A model generated the notes under the pieces. That model made no database searches. It was not told where the DNA came from and saw only the letters and a list, made by a program, of their open reading frames with translations. From assembly GCF_001887355.1 (NCBI RefSeq), contig NZ_MPIN01000003.1:441939-505938 (forward strand): a DNA stretch of 64,000 bases. Reading direction: 5' to 3'. Shown one piece after another: positions 19,831 to 32,504 of this stretch (within the stretch, counting starts at the first letter, position 1; each line of letters begins with the position of its first letter). Origin of the DNA: Cystobacter ferrugineus (lineage in GTDB: Bacteria > Myxococcota > Myxococcia > Myxococcales > Myxococcaceae). The position numbers were made by a program, and so were the translations under genes.

Positions 19831-19952
19831 GTCGCCATCCATCTTCTGCTTTCTGGGCGTTCGGCGGCAGGGGTTCTTTGATGTACGGCGCCCTACCGAA
19901 GCAGGCTGACACGATCCACCGAGGCGGGTAGCGGCTCGAGAGCCGGGACTTC

Positions 19953-19986
19953 ACGGGGCCCGTCATTCACCCGATGTGGGCCCCGT
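19953..19986 (-). terminator. Hairpin downstream of the 20010-20486 gene
   Basis: A perfect 9-bp stem, ACGGGGCCC paired with GGGCCCCGT around a 16-nt loop, begins 24 bp after the stop of the gene at 20010-20486. It has no T tract. Confidence 0.45.
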
Positions 19987-20009
19987 CATCCTTCGCTGGG
20001 GGATGACGT

Positions 20010-20486
20010 TCACTCTCCGCGGAAGTTCTCCTTGGGGAAAGCCTTGACCGCGAGCTTTCGAATCAGCTCCAGGTCGCGAAAGGAACCGCCATCGAGCGGT
20101 TGGCCCTTCGTATCGAAGAATATGATGTCCCCGCAGCCGAAACACACCACCGCATCCACCCATGCGTTGCCATGCGAGAAGCGCAGGGCGACGTCCGGAT
20201 TGAAGGTGCAACGCTTGGGGTCCGTGGGCCGCACGTCCTTGGGTGATACCCAGGTCTTCGCCAGCGCCTGGCGCTCTTCCTCCTTCAACTCGGGGCCGCC
20301 GCGGGTGAAGACGAATCCGTGAACGCGAGGGCGCCGATCCTTCTTGGATGGCTTTTCAAACGAGAAGTCCAGATCGGCGAGAAAGAGCTGGACGCGCTCT
20401 GGCTGGAGCATGAAGGCCGTCAGGGGTTGCTCCGCGGGAGTGGCTGGGGCACCTGACAGATAGAGGGCGAGGAGGAGGGTGAGCAT
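20010..20486 (-). CDS. Small secreted hypothetical protein
   Basis: 158 residues. A short hydrophobic N-terminus (MLTLLLALYLSGAPA) looks like a signal peptide. The mature part has RCTFNPDVALRFSHGNAWVD and VVCFGCGDIIFFDTKG; the clustered cysteines (Cys-x2-Cys plus one upstream) could form a disulphide or bind metal. I know no function for this family. It lies 27 bp downstream of the TolB/TPR gene on the same strand and may be the last member of that operon, followed by a hairpin. Confidence 0.65.
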   Translation of the reverse strand: MLTLLLALYLSGAPATPAEQPLTAFMLQPERVQLFLADLDFSFEKPSKKDRRPRVHGFVFTRGGPELKEEERQALAKTWVSPKDVRPTDPKRCTFNPDVALRFSHGNAWVDAVVCFGCGDIIFFDTKGQPLDGGSFRDLELIRKLAVKAFPKENFRGE

Positions 20487-20513
20487 GGTGACTCCAGCCT
20501 ATCTCGTTTCATC

Positions 20514-23500
20514 TCACTCGGCGGGTGGGGTTGCGCTGAGCGCCAGATAGATCTCGAACCACGCCAGATATGAGCGCCAGGAAGGATCACGCTGGTCGAT
20601 GAGGGAGCGTTGCGCCTGGCCCAGACGCTTGGGCACGTCGAAAGGCACCTGCGTGTTCCCATCCGAGTGCAACTGCGCCGCGAACCAGAGCACGTCCAGC
20701 TGCGCGATATCGACGGGTGCGTGGGTGCGCTCGATCAGGGTGTCGGCGTGCTCGATCGCCTTGCCCAACCAGCGGGCCGCCCGCGCCGTGTCTTGGCGAT
20801 CCACTGCGTTCTCGGCCAGCCGCATCTCCGCCAGCGTCATCGCGCGGATGTCCTCATCGCGATCCGACTCGGCGAACTGTTCCACGAACAGCGCGCGCCG
20901 CTGCTCGAGTGCGTGGGCGGCGGCGTCCAGGTGTCCGAGTCGGGTCTCCGCATTGGCGCGTAGTCCCGCGGCGATGATGCGATAGGTGCGCTGAACGTGC
21001 CGGGGAGTGGCGCGCGCCCAGTTCAGCGTGGCTTGAACCGCTGGTGTTGCCAGGTCGCGATCGACTTTGTCCAGGTCCTCCAATGCCCTCTGGGGTTGAC
21101 CCGCCCCCAACGCCGCGGCGCAGCGGGCCAGCCGCACCACCAACCGGTTGCGCAGGCCCTGCGCGTCGCTGGGTCCCGTTTCCACGGCGGGCAGTTCGCG
21201 ATCGTAGAGCGCCAACGCACGCTCGAATCGGCCCGCGGCGAGGTTGTAGAGTGCCGCGCGATCCAGTGCCAGGGGGAGGAACCTGGCCAGCTTCGGTGTG
21301 GCGTCCACCATGGCCAGGGCCTGTTCCGCCGCCTGCGCTGACTCTTCCTCGCGGTCGACGTGCAGGAGCGCCCGGGCGCGGGCAAGGGACACCGCCAGCC
21401 CCGCCGCGTTGTCCACGTAGGGCAACTTGTCCCGCTGCTCGAGGTAGCCCAGGGCGATGTGGAAGTTGCCCACCTGGGTGTGCAACAGCCCCAACGCGCC
21501 GAGGATCATCGCCCGGTAGCGCAGGTTGTTGCGCACCAGATCCAGGGCGATCAAGTAGTGCCGGTTGGCGCGCTCGGCGGCGGAAGGTGCGTGGCCGCGG
21601 AGGAAGTCCTCGTGCTGGATGGCACCCGAGAGGACATGCGCCGCGCGCTGGTTCTTGAGCTCTGGCCACGATGCGCGCAGCTCCTTCATGGCGGCCACCA
21701 CCGCGAGGGCGTGGGCCCGGTCATCCAGCTTGGGCAACCGGCGCGCCATCAGGTAGGCCTTCACGAAGTGCGCGAGCGGCCTGGCCATTTTCGCGGAGGT
21801 GGTGGTGACTTCCTTTTCCACCACCTCGGGACTGATGCCGGCACGCAGCCGCAGGCTCATGGACTCGACAGCACTTTCCAGTGAGCCGGTCCGTTGGGTC
21901 ACGAGGTCGAAGTCGGCACGGGCATCGTTCAGGCGCTGCCTCCCCAACCGGCGGTAGGCGCGGCCCATCATCGCGCGGCGAAACAACCGTTCGGCCCGGC
22001 GGCGTTCCTCGGTGCCAGGTGGGGAGTCTTCGACGTAGGCCGTCGCCAACGCCTCCAGCACGCCGTCGGCGCCGAGGCCCGCCGCGCGCTCGACGGCGTC
22101 TTGCACCAGTGCGCGCCGGCGAAGGGGATCCGTTTGCTGATGGTAGAACGAGAGCAACGCCTCCCGAACGGCTCGGGGGGGACGCTCTTCGTGCAACGCG
22201 TTGACGTGCCGGCCCATCTCCAAGGCGAACGCGTAGGCCGAGCCGGCTGGGGCCGAGGCGAGTGCCTGGGCCATGGCGGCATCCGCCTCGTCATAGGGAC
22301 GTCCCCGGTACAGCGCGCGGACGGCGGCGCGAGCGAAGTCGAGCTGGTCGTCTTCACGAAACACTTTGTTCATGGAGAGCCGGCGGCCGGCTTCGACCAG
22401 GGCCTCCCGATCGTCGAGCTTGCGGTACAGTGCGTCCGCTTGTTCGAAGTAGGCTTCCAACACCGCGCGCGGCGTGGTGTCGGTCACCTGGGCTGCCTCC
22501 AACTCCTGACGCGCCAGCGTGAAGTCGCCGGCGGCATCCGCCAGTTCACTGCGCACCACGTGTTGAAACACGGCGGAGGGCGGGCTGGGAGCAGCGGCGG
22601 GATCCAACGCGGCCATGCGTTGCCGGTCGGTGTCGCTCGACTCGTCCACCATGCGGCCGCGTTCGCGCTCCTTCATGGCGCGCCGGTGGTCGATGAGGAG
22701 CCGTAGCGGCTCCGCCAGTCCCGCGGTGGCGGGATCGTCCACCGAACGCATGTGGCGGGCGTAGAACTCCGCCGCATCGAAGTCCTCGAAAGCCAGGTGG
22801 AGCTGGCTCAGGCGCATCATCAGCAGACGGCGGGGTTTGGGCCGGGCTTCGAGCAGCAGGCGTTGACGATAGAGCAGGAGTTGATCCGCGCGCCTGCCGA
22901 CCATTTTCAACTCCTCGTTGAGACGAGGAACGTCCCAGTTGCTGGGAACCTGGCCATCCAGCGGCAGTTGATACACATCCAGCGATTGATCGCGCGAACA
23001 GGTCGCGATGAGTGACGCGGCCGCGGGCGCCGGGTACTCGCAGCTCCAGGATTCACTGGTGAGCTGGTCCGGACTGGAGGCGGCGGCCAACTCGGGCGCG
23101 TCCTCGCGCTCAGCGGCGAAAGGCACCCGGAACAGCACTCCGCTGTCGCTGGCGTCGATCACCCCGTCCTCATTGGAGTCGGTGAAGAATTGCACCACGT
23201 ACAGGGAGCGCCCATCGCGCGCGAACACCGGCTGTCCGGTCCGTCCCGGAAGATCGAGCGCCAGCCGTACGGGGGTAGCGCCGGGGCGATCCAGCCGAAG
23301 TGCCTCCAGATGGGACGCGGCTCGCGCGGCGAAGCCGGGGCCCACCTGCTGCACGGAGCGTTCGATCGGGACGTACACCAGCCATCGTCCATCGGGTGAG
23401 AGGGTGGGACTGGTCAGGTTGCGATCGAGCATGGGGCTCACGCTCAACTCGCGTCCCACCGAGACCCGCGACAACCGCAGATCGCCCTGGATGGTTGTCC

Positions 23501-23945
23501 GGCTCACCAACGCCACATGCGAGGCATCGATCCATTCCGCCTGCAGCGCGCTGGTTTCTTCTTCGAGGCAGCGGCGTCCTTCCGCGCCAGGCAGATCCCG
23601 CACACATAGCTGACCGCTGGCCTGGTTTCGGAACGAGATGTAGAGCAGGTGTTTGCCATCGGGGCTGACCCGCGGCCAGGTCACGTCGGCACCTTCGTCG
23701 AAGAGGCGGCGCTCGCGGCCCTGTTCCAGATCCTGGACGTAGATCTCGGTCGCGATGTTGCGGTTGGACACGAAGAGCAGCGTGTTCCCATCGGGCGCCA
23801 ACTGCCCCAGGAAGTGATCTCCCACGCCCACGGTGAGCCGCGAGGGCGTGCGCAAGCCCGTGTCCTGCTCATCATCCTGCGCCCAGGCGCTGCCCGCGAT
23901 GAGAACGGCCAGGGCCATGGCGCACCAGCCACGCGGCGTCAGCAC
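20514..23945 (-). CDS. TolB-like beta-propeller and TPR secreted protein
   Basis: 1143 residues. A signal peptide ends at about residue 22 (AGSAWA). Residues of about 35-330 hold PD40/TolB-type propeller blades (LAPDGNTLLFVSNRN, VSPDGKHLLYISF, LSPDGRWLVYVP, ARDGRSLYVVQFF). The remaining roughly 750 residues are a long alpha-helical solenoid of TPR-like hairpins (DFTLARQELEAAQ, FHIALGYLEQRDKLPY, RFERALALYDRELPAV). It should be a periplasmic scaffold. Its start overlaps the end of the YdbL-like lipoprotein gene by 7 bp, so it belongs to the same operon as the AsmA/YdbH-like protein and probably works on the same envelope task, though no enzyme motif is visible. Confidence 0.75.
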   Translation of the reverse strand: MLTPRGWCAMALAVLIAGSAWAQDDEQDTGLRTPSRLTVGVGDHFLGQLAPDGNTLLFVSNRNIATEIYVQDLEQGRERRLFDEGADVTWPRVSPDGKHLLYISFRNQASGQLCVRDLPGAEGRRCLEEETSALQAEWIDASHVALVSRTTIQGDLRLSRVSVGRELSVSPMLDRNLTSPTLSPDGRWLVYVPIERSVQQVGPGFAARAASHLEALRLDRPGATPVRLALDLPGRTGQPVFARDGRSLYVVQFFTDSNEDGVIDASDSGVLFRVPFAAEREDAPELAAASSPDQLTSESWSCEYPAPAAASLIATCSRDQSLDVYQLPLDGQVPSNWDVPRLNEELKMVGRRADQLLLYRQRLLLEARPKPRRLLMMRLSQLHLAFEDFDAAEFYARHMRSVDDPATAGLAEPLRLLIDHRRAMKERERGRMVDESSDTDRQRMAALDPAAAPSPPSAVFQHVVRSELADAAGDFTLARQELEAAQVTDTTPRAVLEAYFEQADALYRKLDDREALVEAGRRLSMNKVFREDDQLDFARAAVRALYRGRPYDEADAAMAQALASAPAGSAYAFALEMGRHVNALHEERPPRAVREALLSFYHQQTDPLRRRALVQDAVERAAGLGADGVLEALATAYVEDSPPGTEERRRAERLFRRAMMGRAYRRLGRQRLNDARADFDLVTQRTGSLESAVESMSLRLRAGISPEVVEKEVTTTSAKMARPLAHFVKAYLMARRLPKLDDRAHALAVVAAMKELRASWPELKNQRAAHVLSGAIQHEDFLRGHAPSAAERANRHYLIALDLVRNNLRYRAMILGALGLLHTQVGNFHIALGYLEQRDKLPYVDNAAGLAVSLARARALLHVDREEESAQAAEQALAMVDATPKLARFLPLALDRAALYNLAAGRFERALALYDRELPAVETGPSDAQGLRNRLVVRLARCAAALGAGQPQRALEDLDKVDRDLATPAVQATLNWARATPRHVQRTYRIIAAGLRANAETRLGHLDAAAHALEQRRALFVEQFAESDRDEDIRAMTLAEMRLAENAVDRQDTARAARWLGKAIEHADTLIERTHAPVDIAQLDVLWFAAQLHSDGNTQVPFDVPKRLGQAQRSLIDQRDPSWRSYLAWFEIYLALSATPPAE

Positions 23946-24478
23946 TTCTTTTCTCCCCAGGTGCCGTCATCGGATTCAACCCAGCCGCCGCAGATCACAC
24001 CCTCCGCGTGGACCCGTTGCCAACTCTGGCGCAGCGACTCCTCGGACACACCGGGGCGGACCGTCCGCATCCACTGCCACAGTTGCCGCCGGGACCGGTT
24101 CACCCTTTCCACCAGGGCGGCATCATCGGCCGACAAGCGCCCGGCCCGGCATTGGCGCCGGGTGTCCACCAGCAGCCCGTCCCGTCCTTCGCCCACGCAG
24201 TGGCGCCGCAGCAACTCGTCGACGCGGTCCGCTGGCGTCCTGCCGATGTTCTCGACCAACGGCGTGGGTTGGATGCCCAGCTCCTCCAGTTGGTTGGGCG
24301 TGAGTGGCACGGGCGTTGGGTTCATGCCCGCGCGGGCGAGACGCTGTTCCACGTCCTTGAACGAGCCCGACGCCTGTTCTTCGAGCGCCGTCGCGCGATC
24401 GACCATGACGATCTCCGGGGCGCGGATGCACCCGGGAAGGGCGAGGGCGGCGAGAAGCAGCAACCCGCGGCGTTTCAT
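23939..24478 (-). CDS. YdbL family (DUF1318) lipoprotein
   Basis: 179 residues. The lipobox is LALPGC (Cys at about 17), followed by VMVDRATALEEQASGSF and, in the C-terminal half, VGEGRDGLLV, ALVERVNRSRRQLW, a helical segment and WVESDDGTWGEKKC. This C-terminal pattern is that of DUF1318, the YdbL family. In E. coli ydbL lies with ydbH and the small lipoprotein gene ynbE; here a lipidated N-terminus is joined to the YdbL-like domain in one chain and no separate ynbE is seen. The gene starts inside the stop of the AsmA-like gene (ATGA), so expression is coupled. Confidence 0.78.
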   Translation of the reverse strand: MKRRGLLLLAALALPGCIRAPEIVMVDRATALEEQASGSFKDVEQRLARAGMNPTPVPLTPNQLEELGIQPTPLVENIGRTPADRVDELLRRHCVGEGRDGLLVDTRRQCRAGRLSADDAALVERVNRSRRQLWQWMRTVRPGVSEESLRQSWQRVHAEGVICGGWVESDDGTWGEKKC

Positions 24479-27400
24479 GGCGTGGTCTCCGGGGGATACA
24501 AGGAGTTGATGAGACGGTCGACGATGGGGCCCATGGGGATGCCTCGGATCTCGTCGATGCTGATCAGCCTGGCCAGGCCGCCCATGGTGATGCTCAGCCG
24601 GCCGAAGCCGTGGTTGAAGCTCACCCGTACGTGTTCCGGGTAGCCCAATCCCAACGCGTAGCGGACGCGATTGGTGGCGGGATCGGTGTGGAGCGGATCC
24701 TCCAGATCGAGCAGGTCGAGCAGGTGACGGTTGCCAATGCGCAGGATCTCCGCGCGTCCGTTGACGCTGCGATCCTTGCCAGAGATGACCACGGCTGCAT
24801 TTCCGTCAAAGGGCTCTCCCCGGGACGATTTCACTCCGGTCGCCCGCACGTGTGCCTCCAGGGTGGAGTACTTTCCCTGCCAATCCAACATACACTGTCC
24901 GGTGACACGCCCGCCGCGGACGCCCATCTCGAGCTGACTCAAGGAAACCATGTTCTGGTTGATGGACAGGTTTCCGGCCAGGGGCGCGATGGAAATGAGC
25001 GGCGTGGTGATGCTGCCCACCGACATGAATCCATTGCGCGAGAGCAAGGGATGTTGGTCGGCGAAACGAAGCATCGAGTACGGGTTCACGTCGATGTCGT
25101 TCATCAGACGCACCTGGCCCTCGGTGAGCTCCAGGTTCTGGGTCAGCGGCACGTGGCCATCGAGCGTTTCGATCGCGACCCCCGAGTCGGGCAGCCGCAG
25201 GTTCACGTTCTGGAGGTGCACGTTGGAGAGGGTCCGGAAGACCACCAGGTTGGGCGAGGCCATCCCGAAATCGACCGTGACCTTGCCGCTGCTCTCGATG
25301 AGGCCGGGCTGCGCGAGCTTGGACAAGTCCTGCTCCAGCTCTCCCCTGACCGCCAGTCGGCGCCGGTCGTCACCGAGCTCGAGCCGGCCTTTGACCTTCA
25401 GTTGGGTACTCGTCCCGGCATTGGACACTTGCAGGTCGGGGATGTGAATGACGCCATTGGGCTTGCGGCGAGCGGAGAACGACCCTTCCAGGTCCTGGAC
25501 CGGATAGGGCAGCGCTGGCCTCTGTTCGAGGGCGCGGACCTTCAGGAATTGTCTCAGTTCGATGTCGTCCGCTTCCCACTTCTCGGGGAGGGTGGCGGTG
25601 GTGTCGCTGGTCACGTCGGCGAATGACAGCCGGCGATCGCCCATGCCCACGGCGAGTTTTTCCACCGTCAGGTTGCTGTGGACGATTCGCCGTGGCCCCT
25701 CGGCGCGCGACTCGACCTGCCAATGCAGAGCGGGGAGGTTGATCGACCGGCCCTCCTGCCTCCAGCGGATGCCGCGTGCGTCCACCACCGCCTTTCCCTC
25801 GAAGCTGGCGGTACGCAGCGGGGCAGGGGTCAGGCTCGGGGTTCCGTCGGCGGCGATGTCCGTGAGCACACCGCGCAGCGTGCCATGCAGCTCGACGTTC
25901 AGCGCGAGCCGCGAGGAGTCCAGTTCCGCGGGCACCTGGGCCTTGGCCAGGAGAGGTGTCAGCGCACCGAGGGGCGGAAGGTCACCCTTGACATCACAGC
26001 GAAGCGCGCGGGCTTTCCGGTCGAACGCCAGTGCGGCGTCGAGTGCGATCTTCAGCCCCGCCTGGCTGGTGAGCCCCAACCGGAGCGACGGCTTCCGGCG
26101 ATCGAGGTCCAGCGTCAGTGTCTGGTGCTGAGAACCCGCGTCGTTCTCTCCGACGCGCAGCCCTTCGATTCGAAGATCCAGTTCGCCCTTGTGCCGCCAG
26201 GCATCTCCTTGCGAACGCATCACGGCGGCGATGTTGCTGGCCGACACGTCGTCCCATCCCGGCCGTTGCAGGCGCAGCTCCGTCCGATGCTCCAACCGTG
26301 GCGAGGAGGAAAAGAGCGCCGCCAGTCTGCCCGTGGATGCCAGGTCCACGGCCAGGTGGTTCCAGGGAACGCGTGCGGCGACCGACTCGGGGATGAAGGG
26401 CCGGGCGGCGACGAGGTCCGGGGTCTGGACGGCCAGGGTGTACGCCACCTCATTGGTTCCCTTGGTGGCATCCAGCGACGCGTGCATCGTGCCAACGTCG
26501 AGCTCCAGACGGGCGCGGGCCCGGCCAAGCCGTGGCTCGTCCAACCGAGGGAACACCTCCGACGCGTTGAGGTCCATGTGCACGGGGCCCTTCAGCACCT
26601 CGCGTCCATCCGCCGTGTGCACCTGGAGTGCCCCTACGGACGCGTCCGCTTTCAGCGTGAAGGGCGGCTCACCCACCAAGGGGGCTTGGAGCTGGAATCC
26701 CAGACGTTGAGCCGTCGCACGGAGCCCGGATGCACGGATGTCCAACGCATCCACCCCTCCGGACAGGGCAGCCTCCCCCGCGACCTTGATGGGCGATGAG
26801 GGGTCTGGTCTCAACTGGTGACCCTTCAGTTCGCCGTGGGCCTTCGGAACACGAAGCATGGTGGGGCCCCCGACATCGAGCCCCTGGAGCGCGAAGGAGA
26901 GTCGAGTGGCCAGCCCCTGTTGGGGATCAGGGGTCGCCACCAAGGAGACGCGCCCACCGCCAAGTGCCATCCGAAGATCGTCTTGAACGAACTGGAGCGC
27001 CGCGATGTCGACGTCCAGCCCGAGTTTTCCCTGGGCTCCCAACTGTGGCAGGGCGCTGAGCGTGATCTCCTGGGCGTCCAGATGCACTTTGCCGCGCTCG
27101 ATCGAGAAGGGGCGCCAATGAGCGGGGAGCTGTTGCATCAGCCGTCCGAGATCGAGATCCGCCAAGGCCCGCGTCACGACGGGCGGAACATCCGCTGCAT
27201 CCGGAAGCACCAACCGGGCTTGCACTTCGGCGCTGTCGGTCAACTGGGTGCGGTCCAGCTCGATGGCGATGTGCCGCTTCTCGCCATCGAACTTCGCGGA
27301 GGCCGTACCGTGCAGCAGTGTGTGGAGCGTGAACCGCGGGTCGAAGGTCTGCCGCGCGACATCAAGGTCCACCCGCGCGTGAGCGGCCGACGCCCCTGCC

Positions 27401-28188
27401 TCCGCCGAGAGGGTCAGCTCCAGTTGGGCCAGGGCCAACGGAATGGCTGGGCCTTCACGGCTCAACTCCAGGGGAAGCGGCGTACCGGTCTGGCCCATTG
27501 TCGCGAAGACCTTCCATCCACCGTCCTGCTTCGCTTCGACGGCGGCCGCGAGTCCACGCAAGGACCAGCGCTCGAGCACTTCACCGTTCCGGACGCGGAC
27601 GTAACTCAACGACACGTCCGACACTTCCACCTTCCCGACGGGAGGCGCGGAGGCCAGAAGGGCAGCGACCTGCTGAGAGGCTCCAAGTGGCGCTTCAACG
27701 GGCGGCGGCTCAGGCGCTTCCGGCCCCATCAATCCCGTGAGAGACGTGGGCCCCGCCTCGTCGGCCACCAGGGTGAAGGCCACGTTCCGTACCGCCACCT
27801 GCTCAACCAGGGGGGCTCCGCTCAGCAGCGAGCCGGGCGACCATTGCGCCTCCAGCGTGCCGACGCGCAGCAGCTCGGGCGCGACGCTTTGAAACGGCGA
27901 CGGGGTTCGCACCACCAGCCCTTCCAGTCGCAGCCCCGAGAGCACGGCGACCTGGGTCGTCTGGTAGTCCAGCTGCAGGCCAGTGGCCGCTTCCACCCCG
28001 GAGACGAGGTGCTGTTTCAGCCAGGGGCGATCGAGGAGGTGCAGCGCGGCCACCGCCGTGACCAGCACCAGCGCGAGGAGCGCACCGAGAATCAGGAGCA
28101 CGCCCGCGATGATTCGTGCCAACCGCCGAAGAGGTCGTCCAGCTCCGAGGAGTTCCATGATTTTCGATCGGGAGCGAGCGGTCACCAT
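24475..28188 (-). CDS. AsmA/YdbH-like intermembrane protein
   Basis: 1237 residues. One N-terminal membrane helix (about 25-50) is followed by a very long beta-rich periplasmic chain with many short amphipathic strands, and a C-terminal YdbH-like end containing VRLMNDIDVNPYSMLRFAD, LEMGVRGGRVTGQCMLDW and HVRVSFNHGFGRLSITMGG. Proteins of this group (YhdP, TamB, YdbH) form hydrophobic grooves spanning the periplasm and move phospholipid to the outer membrane. The partner DUF1318 lipoprotein directly downstream supports assignment to the YdbH branch. Expected topology: anchored in the inner membrane, reaching the outer membrane. The operon reads minus and continues into the TolB/TPR gene. Confidence 0.8.
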   Translation of the reverse strand: MVTARSRSKIMELLGAGRPLRRLARIIAGVLLILGALLALVLVTAVAALHLLDRPWLKQHLVSGVEAATGLQLDYQTTQVAVLSGLRLEGLVVRTPSPFQSVAPELLRVGTLEAQWSPGSLLSGAPLVEQVAVRNVAFTLVADEAGPTSLTGLMGPEAPEPPPVEAPLGASQQVAALLASAPPVGKVEVSDVSLSYVRVRNGEVLERWSLRGLAAAVEAKQDGGWKVFATMGQTGTPLPLELSREGPAIPLALAQLELTLSAEAGASAAHARVDLDVARQTFDPRFTLHTLLHGTASAKFDGEKRHIAIELDRTQLTDSAEVQARLVLPDAADVPPVVTRALADLDLGRLMQQLPAHWRPFSIERGKVHLDAQEITLSALPQLGAQGKLGLDVDIAALQFVQDDLRMALGGGRVSLVATPDPQQGLATRLSFALQGLDVGGPTMLRVPKAHGELKGHQLRPDPSSPIKVAGEAALSGGVDALDIRASGLRATAQRLGFQLQAPLVGEPPFTLKADASVGALQVHTADGREVLKGPVHMDLNASEVFPRLDEPRLGRARARLELDVGTMHASLDATKGTNEVAYTLAVQTPDLVAARPFIPESVAARVPWNHLAVDLASTGRLAALFSSSPRLEHRTELRLQRPGWDDVSASNIAAVMRSQGDAWRHKGELDLRIEGLRVGENDAGSQHQTLTLDLDRRKPSLRLGLTSQAGLKIALDAALAFDRKARALRCDVKGDLPPLGALTPLLAKAQVPAELDSSRLALNVELHGTLRGVLTDIAADGTPSLTPAPLRTASFEGKAVVDARGIRWRQEGRSINLPALHWQVESRAEGPRRIVHSNLTVEKLAVGMGDRRLSFADVTSDTTATLPEKWEADDIELRQFLKVRALEQRPALPYPVQDLEGSFSARRKPNGVIHIPDLQVSNAGTSTQLKVKGRLELGDDRRRLAVRGELEQDLSKLAQPGLIESSGKVTVDFGMASPNLVVFRTLSNVHLQNVNLRLPDSGVAIETLDGHVPLTQNLELTEGQVRLMNDIDVNPYSMLRFADQHPLLSRNGFMSVGSITTPLISIAPLAGNLSINQNMVSLSQLEMGVRGGRVTGQCMLDWQGKYSTLEAHVRATGVKSSRGEPFDGNAAVVISGKDRSVNGRAEILRIGNRHLLDLLDLEDPLHTDPATNRVRYALGLGYPEHVRVSFNHGFGRLSITMGGLARLISIDEIRGIPMGPIVDRLINSLYPPETTP

Positions 28189-28245
28189 CGTACTACCATG
28201 CGGCGGAATCGGATTTCAATCGGCGGGGCCAGCGGGCCATCCGGC

Positions 28246-29394
28246 TCAGGGCTTGAGCTTCTTCTTGTCGGCCCACTCCAGCGTCGCGACGATCTCCCGC
28301 ATCCAGAGGAAGCCAGGGTCGAGCGAGGGTTCGATGACTCCCTCCGCTTCCGCTGCCTTGAAATGAAATCGGGCGCGTTCGTACCCAGGGGTGTGAAGCC
28401 GTTTGATCATCTCGAGGATTTCCGTTTGGGGAAGACGCTCCTCGGAGAGCAAGTTCAACAGATGGGTCAATCCATCGTCTCCCAGGAAGTCCTTGAGACT
28501 GAGGTCGCACAGGAGGAGTTTCTTGGGGCCAAATTCCGCCTCATCGTACTGACAGCCGTCTGGCCGCGGACTGGCCGCTCGCTGATGGACAAGGCGAAGC
28601 CCCCTGCCCTCGATCCGGTTCTTATGCAGCTTCTCGAGCCATTCGACAACACCCTCCTCTGGTCGCTGGATCAGTGTGTTGCACGCATCGCACACCCAGA
28701 AGGTGGTTCTGGGTTTTGGTTCGAGCGAGCGAGGCACCCGGTGATTTCGCATGGTCAAGAATGACGCAATGCGCTCGGCGTCGTCCGAAACGAAAGTGAT
28801 GACTGGAATGGGATAGTCGAAGAAGGCACTGACCAACCTGTTGAGCCGGTTGGCGAGCCGTTCGCCATCTGGATGGGCTTCCAGTCGCGTGATGAACTCG
28901 TGCCGATCTTCGGCATGCAGGAGCATCGAGAGGGGAAACTCCCAGGGCGCGTTGGGTTCAGCACCTCGGAGCTTGAAGGTCCGGGCCCTCAAATCGAAGT
29001 TGATTCGCGTACGCGCCTTTGGAATGGGTGAGCGGGAACGGCGATCGTGCCTGTGATCAGTGCGCCAGAACGATTCGCCGAAGACCTCGAACAGGACGCG
29101 AAGCCGATCACTTCCCTCCAACACATAGTCGCGTGGAGCCTCATCCTCATCACCATCGCCGACAGGAATGCCTCCCAACTCCCCAGCATGAGAGAAGCGG
29201 AGCGTGGTGCGGCACAGCGTGATGCTTCCCATGGGCACCCCTCGGTAGATGGCCTCGAACAGTTCCAACCGCCGCGTGTCGTCCCAGGGTGCTTCGTCGT
29301 CCGCCAGGATCAGCAGGTGCCCGTGGTACACCTGACGCATCAACACGGGAAGCGAGAACGTGGCGAACTGCTGCTGCACAGAGTGGGAGGCCAT
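28246..29394 (-). CDS. DUF262 (GmrSD N-like) protein with degenerate motif
   Basis: 382 residues. The N-terminal 110 residues follow the DUF262 plan: FSLPVLMRQVYHG, PWDDTRRLELFEAIYRGVPM with GSITL, then the signature position reads VLEGSDRLRVL (about 91-101) where active members have (I/V)DGQQR. The catalytic Asp and both Gln are therefore replaced. A CxxC (VCDACNTLI) lies at mid-protein, then ASFLTMRNHRVPRS upstream of it, and the tail is helical. It is the third gene of the ATPase/Toprim operon, 7 bp after the Toprim-like gene. GmrSD family proteins cut modified phage DNA; this one is more likely a sensor, regulator or structural partner than a nuclease. Family call by pattern, not by search. 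Confidence 0.6.
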   Translation of the reverse strand: MASHSVQQQFATFSLPVLMRQVYHGHLLILADDEAPWDDTRRLELFEAIYRGVPMGSITLCRTTLRFSHAGELGGIPVGDGDEDEAPRDYVLEGSDRLRVLFEVFGESFWRTDHRHDRRSRSPIPKARTRINFDLRARTFKLRGAEPNAPWEFPLSMLLHAEDRHEFITRLEAHPDGERLANRLNRLVSAFFDYPIPVITFVSDDAERIASFLTMRNHRVPRSLEPKPRTTFWVCDACNTLIQRPEEGVVEWLEKLHKNRIEGRGLRLVHQRAASPRPDGCQYDEAEFGPKKLLLCDLSLKDFLGDDGLTHLLNLLSEERLPQTEILEMIKRLHTPGYERARFHFKAAEAEGVIEPSLDPGFLWMREIVATLEWADKKKLKP

Positions 29395-29401
29395 GTCCTA
29401 C

Positions 29402-30316
29402 CTACATTCGCTCGAAGAGTTTCCGCATGATCTTGTCGATCTCCGCCTTCTGGCCGTCCTCCACGAACCAGTGATGCTCGAGCGGGAAATCCTTTTCCAG
29501 GAAGAGGTCCGCGATACTCGAACTCACCTCGTCCTTCATGCTCACATGTTGCCTGTCGGTCGGCTTGATGGACAGCACATGCTCCACCTTCTTCTGTCGA
29601 TCCTTGCGCTGGGTCGGTCCGGGAGCGTGGTTGACCCATTTGTGGAGAGCTTGCGGAGGGAGGTAGTTCTCGATGCTCCTGCGTTCAAGCGGGTGGTGTG
29701 GCATGAGCCGATTCTCGCACTTCGTCTGGAGGCTCTTCGCGCTGTCGGAGGGCTCTCCCGAGGGTTGCGTGTCCCGGTCGAACATGAACCACGAGCGAAG
29801 ACCCTCCACGGAGGAGTCCTGGATGCTGGCGAGGTACTTCTTCATGTTCTCCAAGCCTCCACCATGCTCGATATGGCACCAGCCCCGTGCCAATGCCTTC
29901 TGGAGGAACTCCCGCTGGGCGGCGGGGGCGATGCAGAGCAGGAAGTGCTTGTCCGAGAGCCGATCCTCGAGAACCAGACGCAAGGGCGTGGCCAGCAAAA
30001 GCGCCGCATCTTGGACGGAGAGCTGGGGGTTGTCCTTGTGCCAATCCGAGTGTTCGCGGTGGGAGACGTGGACCTCCAGGCGGGAAGTGGAGTTCGGATA
30101 GGTCTTCAGTCCTCGGTCCAAGGCTTCCCAGACCGCCTCGCGAACAATCTCATCCCGCTGCGCCAACCACTGATTCACCTGGCTCTTGCCTGTCTTCTTG
30201 AAGGATGGGTCCGTCAAGAGGATGTGCCGGCCTTCCAGGCCGTAGCGCAGCAAGGAGATCAACAGCAGGGGCTCCGCCCGCCCATCGAACAAGGCCTGGT
30301 CGAGCGTGACGATCAC
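29402..30316 (-). CDS. Toprim/DUF4435-like putative nuclease (AriB-like)
   Basis: 304 residues. After an N-terminal segment of about 110 residues, a Toprim-like arrangement is visible: LRLVLEDRLSDKHFLL (acidic Glu117-Asp118), a glycine turn HGGG (151-154), and SWFMFDRDTQP with DxD (Asp180, Asp182). The segment LERRSIENYLPP (210-221) matches the RxxIENYL block found after Toprim in DUF4435 and OLD-type proteins. These residues would chelate metal for DNA or RNA cleavage. The start overlaps the ATPase stop by four bases (ATGA), as expected for an ATPase-nuclease pair such as AriA-AriB of PARIS. The N-terminal extension is unlike the minimal AriB. A Toprim nuclease is probable, not proven. Confidence 0.6.
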   Translation of the reverse strand: MIVTLDQALFDGRAEPLLLISLLRYGLEGRHILLTDPSFKKTGKSQVNQWLAQRDEIVREAVWEALDRGLKTYPNSTSRLEVHVSHREHSDWHKDNPQLSVQDAALLLATPLRLVLEDRLSDKHFLLCIAPAAQREFLQKALARGWCHIEHGGGLENMKKYLASIQDSSVEGLRSWFMFDRDTQPSGEPSDSAKSLQTKCENRLMPHHPLERRSIENYLPPQALHKWVNHAPGPTQRKDRQKKVEHVLSIKPTDRQHVSMKDEVSSSIADLFLEKDFPLEHHWFVEDGQKAEIDKIMRKLFERM

Positions 30317-31590
30317 GGTCGCGCTCGTCCCCGACGCGCGAGCAGGAGCTCGGCGGACATGTCGTTGATCTCGGTGTAGACGTCGGGAGGCCAGTTGCCT
30401 TGGAGTCGGCCCGTTTCATCGATGTGGATGGGGTCGGCCATGCTGCGGCCCTCCTCATCTTGGTGCACCCAGTAGACCTGGACCTGCTCCGGACGCAGCA
30501 GCCCCTTGGCCACTTGAATCTGCACTCCCAGCAGGAGGTGCTGGGAATGGGTTTCCAGGAGGAGACAGGGAAGAGCACCATCCTGACTCAGGATGGTCCC
30601 GATGTGCTCGGCCAGGGCACGTTGAAGTACGGGGTGCAGATTTGACTCGGGTTCCTCGATGGCCAGGATCCGGGGAGCGGCGGAGCTGGGCGAGCGACAC
30701 AGCGCGAGCGCCGTCAAGACGGGCAGCACCTTGAGTACGCCCTCGCCTGAATCCAGCACGTCCACGTCAAGTTCGGCCCTGGCCGTATGGCGCAGATGTA
30801 GCCCAAAGAGAGACGAGGGCAGGTCTTGGACCTCTAACGCTCGCTTGAGGTTCTTCCTGAACCAGGAGGAGACCTCCTCGAGCACTTCAGGCTGGGACGC
30901 CAGGACGGCACCAAAGTCGCCGCCATCGGATTTCATGGTCCACACGGGCCCCACGGGACGTGGCTGGAAACGATCGGTCACCGTGCGCGAGCTGAGCCAG
31001 AGCAGGGAACGGCGCAGCGCGAGCAATCGCGTCCGGAGCATGGCCCAGATGGGCTCGGTCCGTCCTTCCGGCGCATCGGGTATGAGTCCACGGAACCGCA
31101 CCGGCACTTCCAGTCGTTCATCTCCCAGCTCAAGTGCGTAGGTGAGCGCGGGGGAAGACTGCTCCTCGGAGCGAAAACGCCAGACGCCGCGGAGCAGGAG
31201 TGCGCCGGTGGCACTCAAGAAGGCGAAGCGCTTGATGATCAACCGCTTCCAGGTGGGCTCCATGTCGAAGACGAACTCGGCGCGAGCCAGCTCTGGAGCG
31301 TCCCTCCATTCAAGCTCGATGGACATCTCCACGGGTGCATCTTCCTCGTCCTCGGGAACACCCTTCCATCGCAGATCCGCATAGGTATTGCGACGAGCCG
31401 CGGGACCACTGAGGTCGAGTGGGGCCGAGTCCTCTGTGCCCATTGAATCCGCGAGCAGCGGGAGCAGCCGCACCAGGGCGCTCTTTCCAGCACTGTTCTC
31501 CCCATAAAACAGGGTGAGCGGACGGAGCTGAACCTCCTGCGTAAGAGGATACGAGCGGTAGTTCCGAACGCGGAGGGTACTCGGCTGCAT
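30313..31590 (-). CDS. ABC-type AAA ATPase of putative defence operon
   Basis: 425 residues. Walker A is YGENSAGKSALV (Gly30-Ser37), the ABC-like signature LDSGEGVLKVLPVL spans 279-292, Walker B with catalytic acids is ILAIEEPESNLHP (308-320), and the H-loop is LLETHSQHLLL (344-354). A C-terminal block, YWVHQDEEGRSMADPIHID, resembles DUF3696-type ends of AAA_15/AAA_21 proteins. These SMC-like ATPases act as sensors or motors in OLD, Gabija and PARIS defence. The start has a good Shine-Dalgarno (AGGAGGT at 31596-31602). First gene of a three-gene operon with the Toprim-like and DUF262-like genes. Confidence 0.85.
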   Translation of the reverse strand: MQPSTLRVRNYRSYPLTQEVQLRPLTLFYGENSAGKSALVRLLPLLADSMGTEDSAPLDLSGPAARRNTYADLRWKGVPEDEEDAPVEMSIELEWRDAPELARAEFVFDMEPTWKRLIIKRFAFLSATGALLLRGVWRFRSEEQSSPALTYALELGDERLEVPVRFRGLIPDAPEGRTEPIWAMLRTRLLALRRSLLWLSSRTVTDRFQPRPVGPVWTMKSDGGDFGAVLASQPEVLEEVSSWFRKNLKRALEVQDLPSSLFGLHLRHTARAELDVDVLDSGEGVLKVLPVLTALALCRSPSSAAPRILAIEEPESNLHPVLQRALAEHIGTILSQDGALPCLLLETHSQHLLLGVQIQVAKGLLRPEQVQVYWVHQDEEGRSMADPIHIDETGRLQGNWPPDVYTEINDMSAELLLARRGRARP

Positions 31591-31640
31591 GCCGACCTCC
31601 TACCACACGCTCACTCCCCCGACGAGGTCTGGACGGTGAA

Positions 31641-31669
31641 GGTATAAGGAAGGTGGGAGATCGATTGAA
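31641..31669 (-). promoter_or_regulatory. Candidate promoter of the ATPase-Toprim-DUF262 operon
   Basis: On the minus strand, TTCAAT (31669-31664) and TATACC (31646-31641) are separated by 17 bp and lie about 50 bp upstream of the ATPase start. Both boxes are imperfect sigma-70 matches. Confidence 0.3.
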
Positions 31670-31752
31670 GGCGAGGACAGGAGCGCAGAGGGGCCAGGAA
31701 GGCCCACTGGCCCACTGACGGAGGTCGCCCGAGCTGTGCGCCCGGCTGGTGC

Positions 31753-31775
31753 AGGGGGGGCCGCACAGCCCCCCT
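31753..31775. terminator. Hairpin between GST gene and defence operon
   Basis: A 7-bp stem, AGGGGGG paired with CCCCCCT, lies 54 bp beyond the GST stop. It would end transcription of the GST gene before it enters the ATPase operon, which reads in the same direction. The short TTT tract is on the plus-strand side only. Confidence 0.45.
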
Positions 31776-31829
31776 TTCGTCCGAAGTTCGTGGGGCTCGT
31801 TCTGGCTCGCTGCCCTGCTGGCGGGCGGG

Positions 31830-32504
31830 CTAGCGCTGGAGGATCGACTGGGCGGACTGGACGGCCTGGGTCGGGTTGGTGAGGTCGAGCTTCGACTCGT
31901 GCGGCACGGTGAGGCCCTTGCGCGCCGCTGGCCGCTGCTCGATGGCGGCGAGCCAGCGTTGCAGGTTCGGCAGCCCGTCCACGGACACGCCCGCCCAGGC
32001 GTGGCTGCGCACCCAGGCCCAGTTGGCGATGTCGGCGATGCTGTAGTCCCCCGCGAGGTACTCGCTACGCGACAGTTGGGTGTCGAGCACGGTGTACAGC
32101 CGCCGCGTCTCGTTCTGGTAGCGGTCGATGGCCGGTTGGAGCTTCTCCGGGAAGTAGCGGAAGAAGACGTTGGCCTGGCCCTGCATGGGCCCCACGCCCG
32201 CCATCTGGAACATCAACCACTGCGTCACCCGCGAGCGGCCCTTGCGGTCCGTGGGCATGAGTTTGCCCGTCTTCTCCGCCAGGTAGAGCATGATGGCCCC
32301 CGACTCGAAGATGGGGAAGTCACCCTCCTCGCGGTCCACGATGGCCGGGATGCGCCCGTTGGGGTTGATCTTCAGGAAGTCGGGCTGCTTCTGCACTCCC
32401 GTGCCGATGTCGATGGGGTGCACCGTGTAGGGCAGTCCCAGCTCCTCCAGCGTGACGGAAATCTTGTAACCATTGGGCGTCGCCCACGTGTACAGGTCGA
32501 TCAT
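31830..32504 (-). CDS. Glutathione S-transferase, YfcG/YghU-like
   Basis: 224 residues. The N-terminus [20 protein letters not shown] contains the TxNGxK pattern of nu-class GSTs (YfcG, YghU), which act as disulphide-bond reductases with glutathione. [13 protein letters not shown] carries the cis-Pro and [15 protein letters not shown] the glutathione-binding Glu-Ser. The C-terminal helical domain includes [18 protein letters not shown] 32504 is preceded by AAGGAGAA at good spacing and matches family starts; the frame is open 30 codons further but without support. The gene lies 20 bp after the hypothetical gene at 32525-33067, so the two are likely co-transcribed. Confidence 0.88.

Follow-up and report, generated by a model that had tools for sequence, protein, structure and literature searches.

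A likely short-C subtype of the candidate phage defence system PDC-M55 in Cystobacter ferrugineus

Three genes packed on the minus strand of the Cystobacter ferrugineus genome encode an ATPase (A), a probable Toprim protein (B) and a DUF262-derived protein (C), which raises the question of whether they make up a defence system and, if so, whether that system has been described before. They lie within a 64,000-nucleotide stretch of contig NZ_MPIN01000003.1, called the window here. An initial annotation of this DNA had proposed an undescribed system built on a PARIS-like core. We find that PADLOC-DB 2.0.0 already holds the triad as the candidate PDC-M55, and that what is new is a subtype with a short form of C, in which the nucleotide-pocket motifs have gone and another domain has taken the place of the C-terminal part. 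This fusion of a degenerate DUF262 domain to a domain of mobile elements is the unusual part of the locus and had been missed. The explanation that we consider likely is a short-C subtype of PDC-M55, an OLD-type nuclease whose ATPase and Toprim parts are split between genes and whose sensing subunit has changed.

The three genes are arranged as follows:

30313..31590, minus strand: gene A, AAA_15/AAA_21-type ATPase with a DUF3696 C-terminal stretch (PDC-M55A), 425 aa
29402..30316, minus strand: gene B, probable Toprim nuclease (PDC-M55B), 304 aa, GTG start, 4-bp overlap with A
28246..29394, minus strand: gene C, short-form third subunit, 382 aa

All three open reading frames (ORFs) are intact, and their strands, their sizes and the 7-bp gap between B and C are as first annotated. 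The overlap of A and B had been given as ATGA; its length of 4 bp holds, but its letters are GTGA because the start codon of B is GTG. The best PADLOC matches are PDC-M55A for A (6.9e-53), PDC-M55B for B (8.6e-30) and PDC-M55C for C (1.8e-9), the models being PDLC04707-04709, and the gene set is thus already listed there as a phage defence candidate, which is what a passage of PMC11514479 gives as the meaning of 'PDC'. Neither PDC-M55 nor the short-C subtype turned up in our literature searches. The order A-B-C is found in 12 of the 12 B loci recovered (8 in Myxococcota, 1 in Nonomuraea and 3 on Leclercia/Paracoccus plasmids), a conservation of gene content and order that is beyond chance. The annotated pairing of an ATPase and a probable Toprim protein with a DUF262-derived partner therefore stands, and the case of a third gene that never accompanies the pair, named at the outset as a ground for giving the system up, does not arise. 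Motifs were scored in 11 triads; the twelfth, on the second Leclercia plasmid (L085), has an IS1 element inside B and for that reason does not enter the counts and trees.

It is in the third protein that the locus departs from the rest of the family, and two parts can be told apart in it:

28729..29394, minus strand: C residues 1-222, degenerate DUF262/GmrSD_N domain, motifs FQR and DGxQR lost
28249..28707, minus strand: C residues 230-382, unnamed domain of ~150 aa with a CxxC/H/C pattern and stand-alone plasmid and phage homologues over its length

Each of the three genes matches its PDC-M55 model and the gene order is that of the system, and for A and B the match takes in most of the protein. 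C matches only the start of its model (residues 37-175, model positions 40-176 of 554), has lost the pocket motifs and carries a mobile-element domain as its C-terminal part. Since the rest of C is replaced, the locus is filed as a PDC-M55 variant. The DUF262 layout first ascribed to C is borne out by a GmrSD_N/DUF262 match, but one below the Pfam cut-off (23.6 bits vs 33.2) and in a domain without its motifs. All 8 long C proteins (521-576 aa) have both pocket motifs, FQR and DGxQR, and the 3 short ones (382-390 aa; the window, Archangium lansinium and A. violaceum) have neither, the window sequence reading EGSDR. With these motifs lost, short C is unlikely to act through the usual nucleoside triphosphate (NTP) switch. 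The short C proteins are 42-44% identical to one another over their full length, and the C-terminal domain is more alike (48-53%) than the DUF262 remnant (35-46%). In the predicted structure of C the more confident part begins at residue 231, from which the block means of the predicted local distance difference test (pLDDT) run from 70 to 93. A fold search with this model returned no row above Z 3.0 among solved structures, and among viral predicted structures the only match to pass E<=0.001 was an unnamed protein from Gordonia phage Lamberg (174 aa, E 4.1e-5).

A remnant DUF262 (GmrSD_N) domain is also what C shares with type IV restriction enzymes such as GmrSD and BrxU (we take the solved structure 7p9k to be BrxU). 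Passages of the review PMC10952713 describe the DUF262 domain of BrxU and SspE as one that hydrolyses NTPs and controls the nuclease. Unlike these enzymes, C has neither the DGQQR pocket motif nor a DHIxP motif, and the probable nuclease here is B; membership of GmrSD was rejected, as neither (I/V)DGQQR nor DHIYP was found. A DUF1524-type motif of the DHIxP kind ([DE]H[ILV]xP) occurs in 0 of 11 C proteins, and no DUF1524 match at E<=0.5 was obtained in the 8 C proteins scanned. With that motif missing from all 11, the nuclease of the system, if there is one, would be B.

The C-terminal domain of short C has relatives of its own. Used alone as a tblastn query, it matched 24 plasmid records (20 Xanthomonas, 3 Paenibacillus, 1 Halomonas) and one Bacillus phage, and the domain alignment as a query also found loci on IMG/VR contigs; one locus (L044) was dropped from the stand-alone set, its match being 38% over only 47 residues. 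Gene maps were viewed for 6 of the 24-25 plasmid records and for the phage, and in these seven annotated stretches the domain forms a small gene by itself (144-169 aa). Among 96 genomes of the host family it occurs in 4, namely in the three short-C triads and as a 110-aa, half-length ORF in a fourth genome (G063), and the same 4 genomes are found among 189 of the phylum. The CxxC/H/C pattern consists of C235, C238, H270 and C281. C281 is invariant in an 11-row alignment, and the other three are kept in every aligned row except the G063 ORF, which lacks them because, at half length, it misses that part. The pattern looks like a zinc site, and judging from these residues the domain may bind metal. 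No Pfam family scored above its cut-off for the domain in C or for the stand-alone members scanned, NCBIfam gave no match for the stand-alone members scanned and PADLOC none for four of them, PHROGs gave only a weak match of C to a family of unknown function, and a search of PDB sequences with the domain profile returned nothing convincing (best E 0.023, a sodium channel subunit). An unnamed family of small proteins is thereby tied to a candidate defence operon.

On two Xanthomonas plasmids (L034 1810-3094; L035 4193-5477) the stand-alone gene has an annotated recombinase gene as its neighbour, and on an IMG/VR contig (L040 3989-5429) it lies near a resolvase-like ORF, as judged by eye. In Bacillus phage vB_BpuM-ZY1 (L037 5995-6450) it is flanked by the genes for the tail sheath and the tail collar but is encoded on the other strand from the tail genes, in the manner of a cargo gene.

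A and B, unlike C, follow the family models over most of their length. The motifs of A scored for conservation include two with these positions:

31477..31506, minus strand: Walker A of A, residues 29-38, YGENSAGKSA; GxNxxGKS in 11/11 triads scored
30646..30669, minus strand: Walker B of A, residues 308-315, ILAIEEPE; E-[EQ]-P-E in 11/11 triads scored

The D-x-G-x-G stretch and the ETHS H-loop are likewise present in A, the latter in 11 of 11 triads, so that the ATPase motifs are all as first read and the three scored ones are without exception. The PDC-M55A match spans residues 4-418. In Pfam, AAA_15 (8.9e-18) and AAA_21 (1.2e-15) both lie above their cut-offs, and so does DUF3696 (26.6 bits, cut-off 22). 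In a profile search of PDB sequences the top solved relative of A is the OLD-family protein 6p74 (E 3.1e-10).

For B, the positions of interest are these:

29405..30001, minus strand: Toprim-like region of B, residues 106-304, with conserved acidic residues, compared in a structural second look
29966-29968 (E117), 29777-29779 (D180) and 29771-29773 (D182), minus strand: acidic residues of B, each in 11/11 triads scored

The PDC-M55B model matches B over residues 1-266; as it does so from residue 1, the 110 N-terminal residues once taken for an extension belong to the ordinary family protein. The Toprim-like residues that had been singled out, E117 and D180-x-D182, are kept throughout the scored triads, and RRxIENY is present. 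In the structural second look, C-terminal regions of OLD proteins took ranks 1-3 against the B model (6nk8 Z 8.6, 6njv 7.6, 6njx 7.5; for 6nk8 the root mean square deviation was 4.4 over 175 residues), with GajA 8j4t at rank 4 (Z 5.9) and the first unrelated row at 5.8. AriB of PARIS is a DUF4435 protein, and the initial annotation had counted B as its equivalent, but Pfam gives B neither Toprim nor DUF4435 at E<=1 and nothing above cut-off, and among the PADLOC models only PDC-M55B matches it at E<=1. The profile hidden Markov model searches recommended with that annotation thus returned AAA_15 and AAA_21 for A and a sub-cut-off DUF262 for C, but no DUF4435 for B. Profile comparison by hhalign gave B 9.6% against OLD Toprim and 13.2% against DUF4435 (reversed controls 0.3% and 0.2%), with 16.6% between DUF4435 and OLD; an earlier run with 8 B sequences had given 28% against DUF4435. 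By this comparison the distance from B to DUF4435 would be about equal to that from DUF4435 to OLD Toprim. One of seven further B members showed a sub-threshold DUF3226 match in Pfam (E 0.058), and the B profile found nothing convincing among PDB sequences (best E 1.6). From its residues and these comparisons we regard B as probably a Toprim protein and a predicted nuclease. The likeness to OLD/GajA extends to both proteins, as the predicted Toprim region of B ranks OLD first and the best solved relative of A is an OLD protein; unlike there, the two parts are on two genes, and the partner is DUF262-derived rather than a GajB helicase. The host genome holds two further OLD-like_TOPRIM matches (G000:C1:1204531-1204722 and G000:C1:159786-159977).

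The distribution of the triad is patchy and mobile-like. Of 147 genomes in the class, 7 hold PDC-M55B, at 8 loci in all, and a search with the alignment gave the same 7 among 195 genomes of the phylum. Searches of plasmid collections added four records from outside the phylum, namely two IncFII plasmids of Leclercia adecarboxylata and one record each for Nonomuraea gerenzanensis and Paracoccus yeei. Their order is ATPase-B-DUF262 in every case, for L085 by annotation, and the plasmid-borne triads lie near recombinase genes. Phage carriage of the triad was rejected, with no phage record matching window B and no B relative confirmed in IMG/VR. A scan of genome contigs with B found nothing; the same scan with the A alignment gave 4 loci, of which two are the Archangium triads and the others, in Eisenbacteria and Phycisphaerales, are ATPase matches only, without B or C. 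The three short-C triads are at unrelated sites, since they share no flanking DNA: in a blastn comparison (E 1e-8) window positions 15001-47000 match both Archangium loci only between 28234 and 31608, and the two Archangium loci match each other only inside the triad. G+C content falls from 0.678 for the window to 0.635 in A, 0.605 in B and 0.598 in C. Of the congeners, G073 and G074 have no PDC-M55B match and G075 has a long-C triad.

The trees offer a partial account of how the subtype arose. The short-C triads form one group in the tree of A and in that of the C N-terminal domain (100/100 each). In the A tree this group stands beside the long-C triad of G064 (99/97, on a long branch), an arrangement suggesting that long-C systems gave rise to the short form; the C N-domain tree is without this sister relation.

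In G074, only 2.7 kb separates the counterparts of window 16.2-19.9 kb and 31.8-41.0 kb, the AsmA-like block (window 20.5-28.2 kb) lies ~0.7 Mb from the 31.8-41.0 kb block, and the triad is absent; with flanking blocks so far apart, the triad is placed at a rearrangement junction (window 19876-31831). Archangium violaceum (G046) has both subtypes, at L011 6500-10493 and L013 7400-10766; its long-C copy adjoins an mnmG-like gene, by eye, and its short-C copy lies elsewhere.

In the reading that we favour, A and B would be the two halves of an OLD-type nuclease carried on separate genes, with A as an ABC-type ATPase that would hold and gate B, and B as a Toprim metal-dependent nuclease. Ordinary C, a DUF262 protein with an intact nucleotide pocket, would probably be a sensor or licensing subunit for A-B. 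Short C would most likely still dock on A-B through its degenerate DUF262 domain, the added zinc-finger-like domain would recognise the invader or release inhibition, and upon invasion A-B would cut DNA or RNA (tRNA), halting infection. ATPase-Toprim modules recur in defence; as the subtype changes only the putative sensor and leaves A and the probable nuclease intact, it points to C as the specificity part.

Several results weigh against this reading. The Toprim assignment of B is indirect: Pfam gave no Toprim or DUF4435 match in the 8 B members scanned (the window and seven others), the AlphaFold model of B, made from three sequences, is weak (mean pLDDT 52.8), Foldseek with that model returned nothing significant among solved structures (best E 0.38), the top Z of 8.6 barely exceeds the 7-8 that, by the tool's own warning, is typical without a clear match, and the hhalign probabilities are low on an absolute scale. 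That PDC-M55 serves defence is itself a PADLOC prediction. In the B tree, moreover, the short-C group is not one clade (two changes; the group is recovered in 40% of bootstraps), and the neighbours of the triad had no defence-island look in the six Myxococcota loci viewed by eye.

Among the other explanations, we weighed one in which the locus is a branch of Menshen (NsnA-NsnB-NsnC) that shares the ATPase-DUF262 core and has exchanged the effector, and judge it improbable. Kinship of the core speaks for it: A matches NsnB at 6.8e-32, hhalign gives 99.6% between the A family and two Menshen-like ATPases and 96.6% between the C family and the DUF262 proteins of the same two loci, and the long C relatives match NsnA (3.4e-8 to 7.7e-7 in five, 1.2e-11 in Leclercia), so that ordinary PDC-M55 C is related to NsnA even though PADLOC gives none for window C at E<=1. 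A passage of a review also ascribes an OLD-type Toprim domain to one Menshen component (PMC10952713). Against this, the two Menshen-like loci used for comparison (L069 3410-6789 and L070 5379-9819, in relatives) have another third protein and another gene order, DUF262-ATPase-NsnC-like, and the PDC-M55 models score higher. The B family reaches only 0.2% against the two NsnC-like ORFs by hhalign, though these ORFs match the NsnC model only at positions 165-304 (5.0e-7 and 7.4e-7), so that the comparison is not one with the tested Menshen proteins; the two loci are possibly atypical, and the kinship of PDC-M55 to Menshen may be closer. Plain Menshen membership was rejected, as no NsnC match was found for B or C at E<=1 in PADLOC, nor in the host genome at E<=0.001.

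Quite unlikely, in our estimate, is that the operon represents PARIS (AriA-AriB) plus an accessory gene, in which the ATPase would sense a phage protein and release a tRNA-cutting Toprim protein. A does match the AriA models (2.5e-18 and 4.7e-17), B is probably Toprim, and an ATPase and a Toprim protein on separate genes are the layout that a passage of PMC10568477 gives for PARIS, also known as 'class 4' OLD. AriB is reported to cut tRNA (PMC12409363). Yet the AriA scores are far under those of PDC-M55A and NsnB, the better one ranks behind PDC-M55A, NsnB and HEC-03B and is no better than the general AAA_15, and C, being present in 12 of 12 loci, is hardly an accessory but a constant third gene. 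As B is without a DUF4435 match, the operon is not PARIS, and membership was rejected on that ground; the host genome has no DUF4435 match.

A housekeeping or repair complex unrelated to defence is about as improbable as a PARIS system. The lack of a defence-island look in the loci viewed would suit such a complex; its patchy presence in the class and phylum, its plasmid-borne copies near recombinase genes, its lower G+C and its absence from two congeners would not. Least probable of all is that C is a decaying passenger, a dying DUF262 protein with an accidental fusion while A and B act alone: the lost motifs in 3 of 3 short C proteins and the lesser likeness of their N-terminal domain would fit, but every ORF of the triad is intact in each of three genomes, where the triads sit at unrelated sites, C is conserved over its whole length, and the CxxC/H/C residues persist in the three short C proteins as well as in the aligned stand-alone relatives of full length.

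If short C is the changed sensor of a split OLD-type system, one further step suggests itself, which we hold to be improbable. Plant immune receptors carry copies of pathogen targets as decoys, and the C-terminal domain could likewise be a decoy: a small zinc-finger-like protein of conjugative plasmids and phages would have been copied and integrated into the sensor subunit. The mobile-element protein, or its usual binding target, would then be sensed by the guard and trigger A-B, and the old DUF262 nucleotide switch would have become dispensable and decayed. The stand-alone domain protein is a testable trigger candidate for the triad.

The DNA upstream of A was described at first as a hairpin and promoter that isolate the operon from the GST gene, and this we could not reproduce: scans gave 0 promoter-like sites in 27900-32000 and no terminator-like sites in 31590-31830, and the three RNA folds of the latter stretch are unremarkable (z -1.67, 0.80 and 0.81), so an isolating promoter or terminator was rejected. 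Direct reading of the sequence 5' of A reveals one further feature:

31596..31601, minus strand: Shine-Dalgarno-like AGGAGG 5' of A

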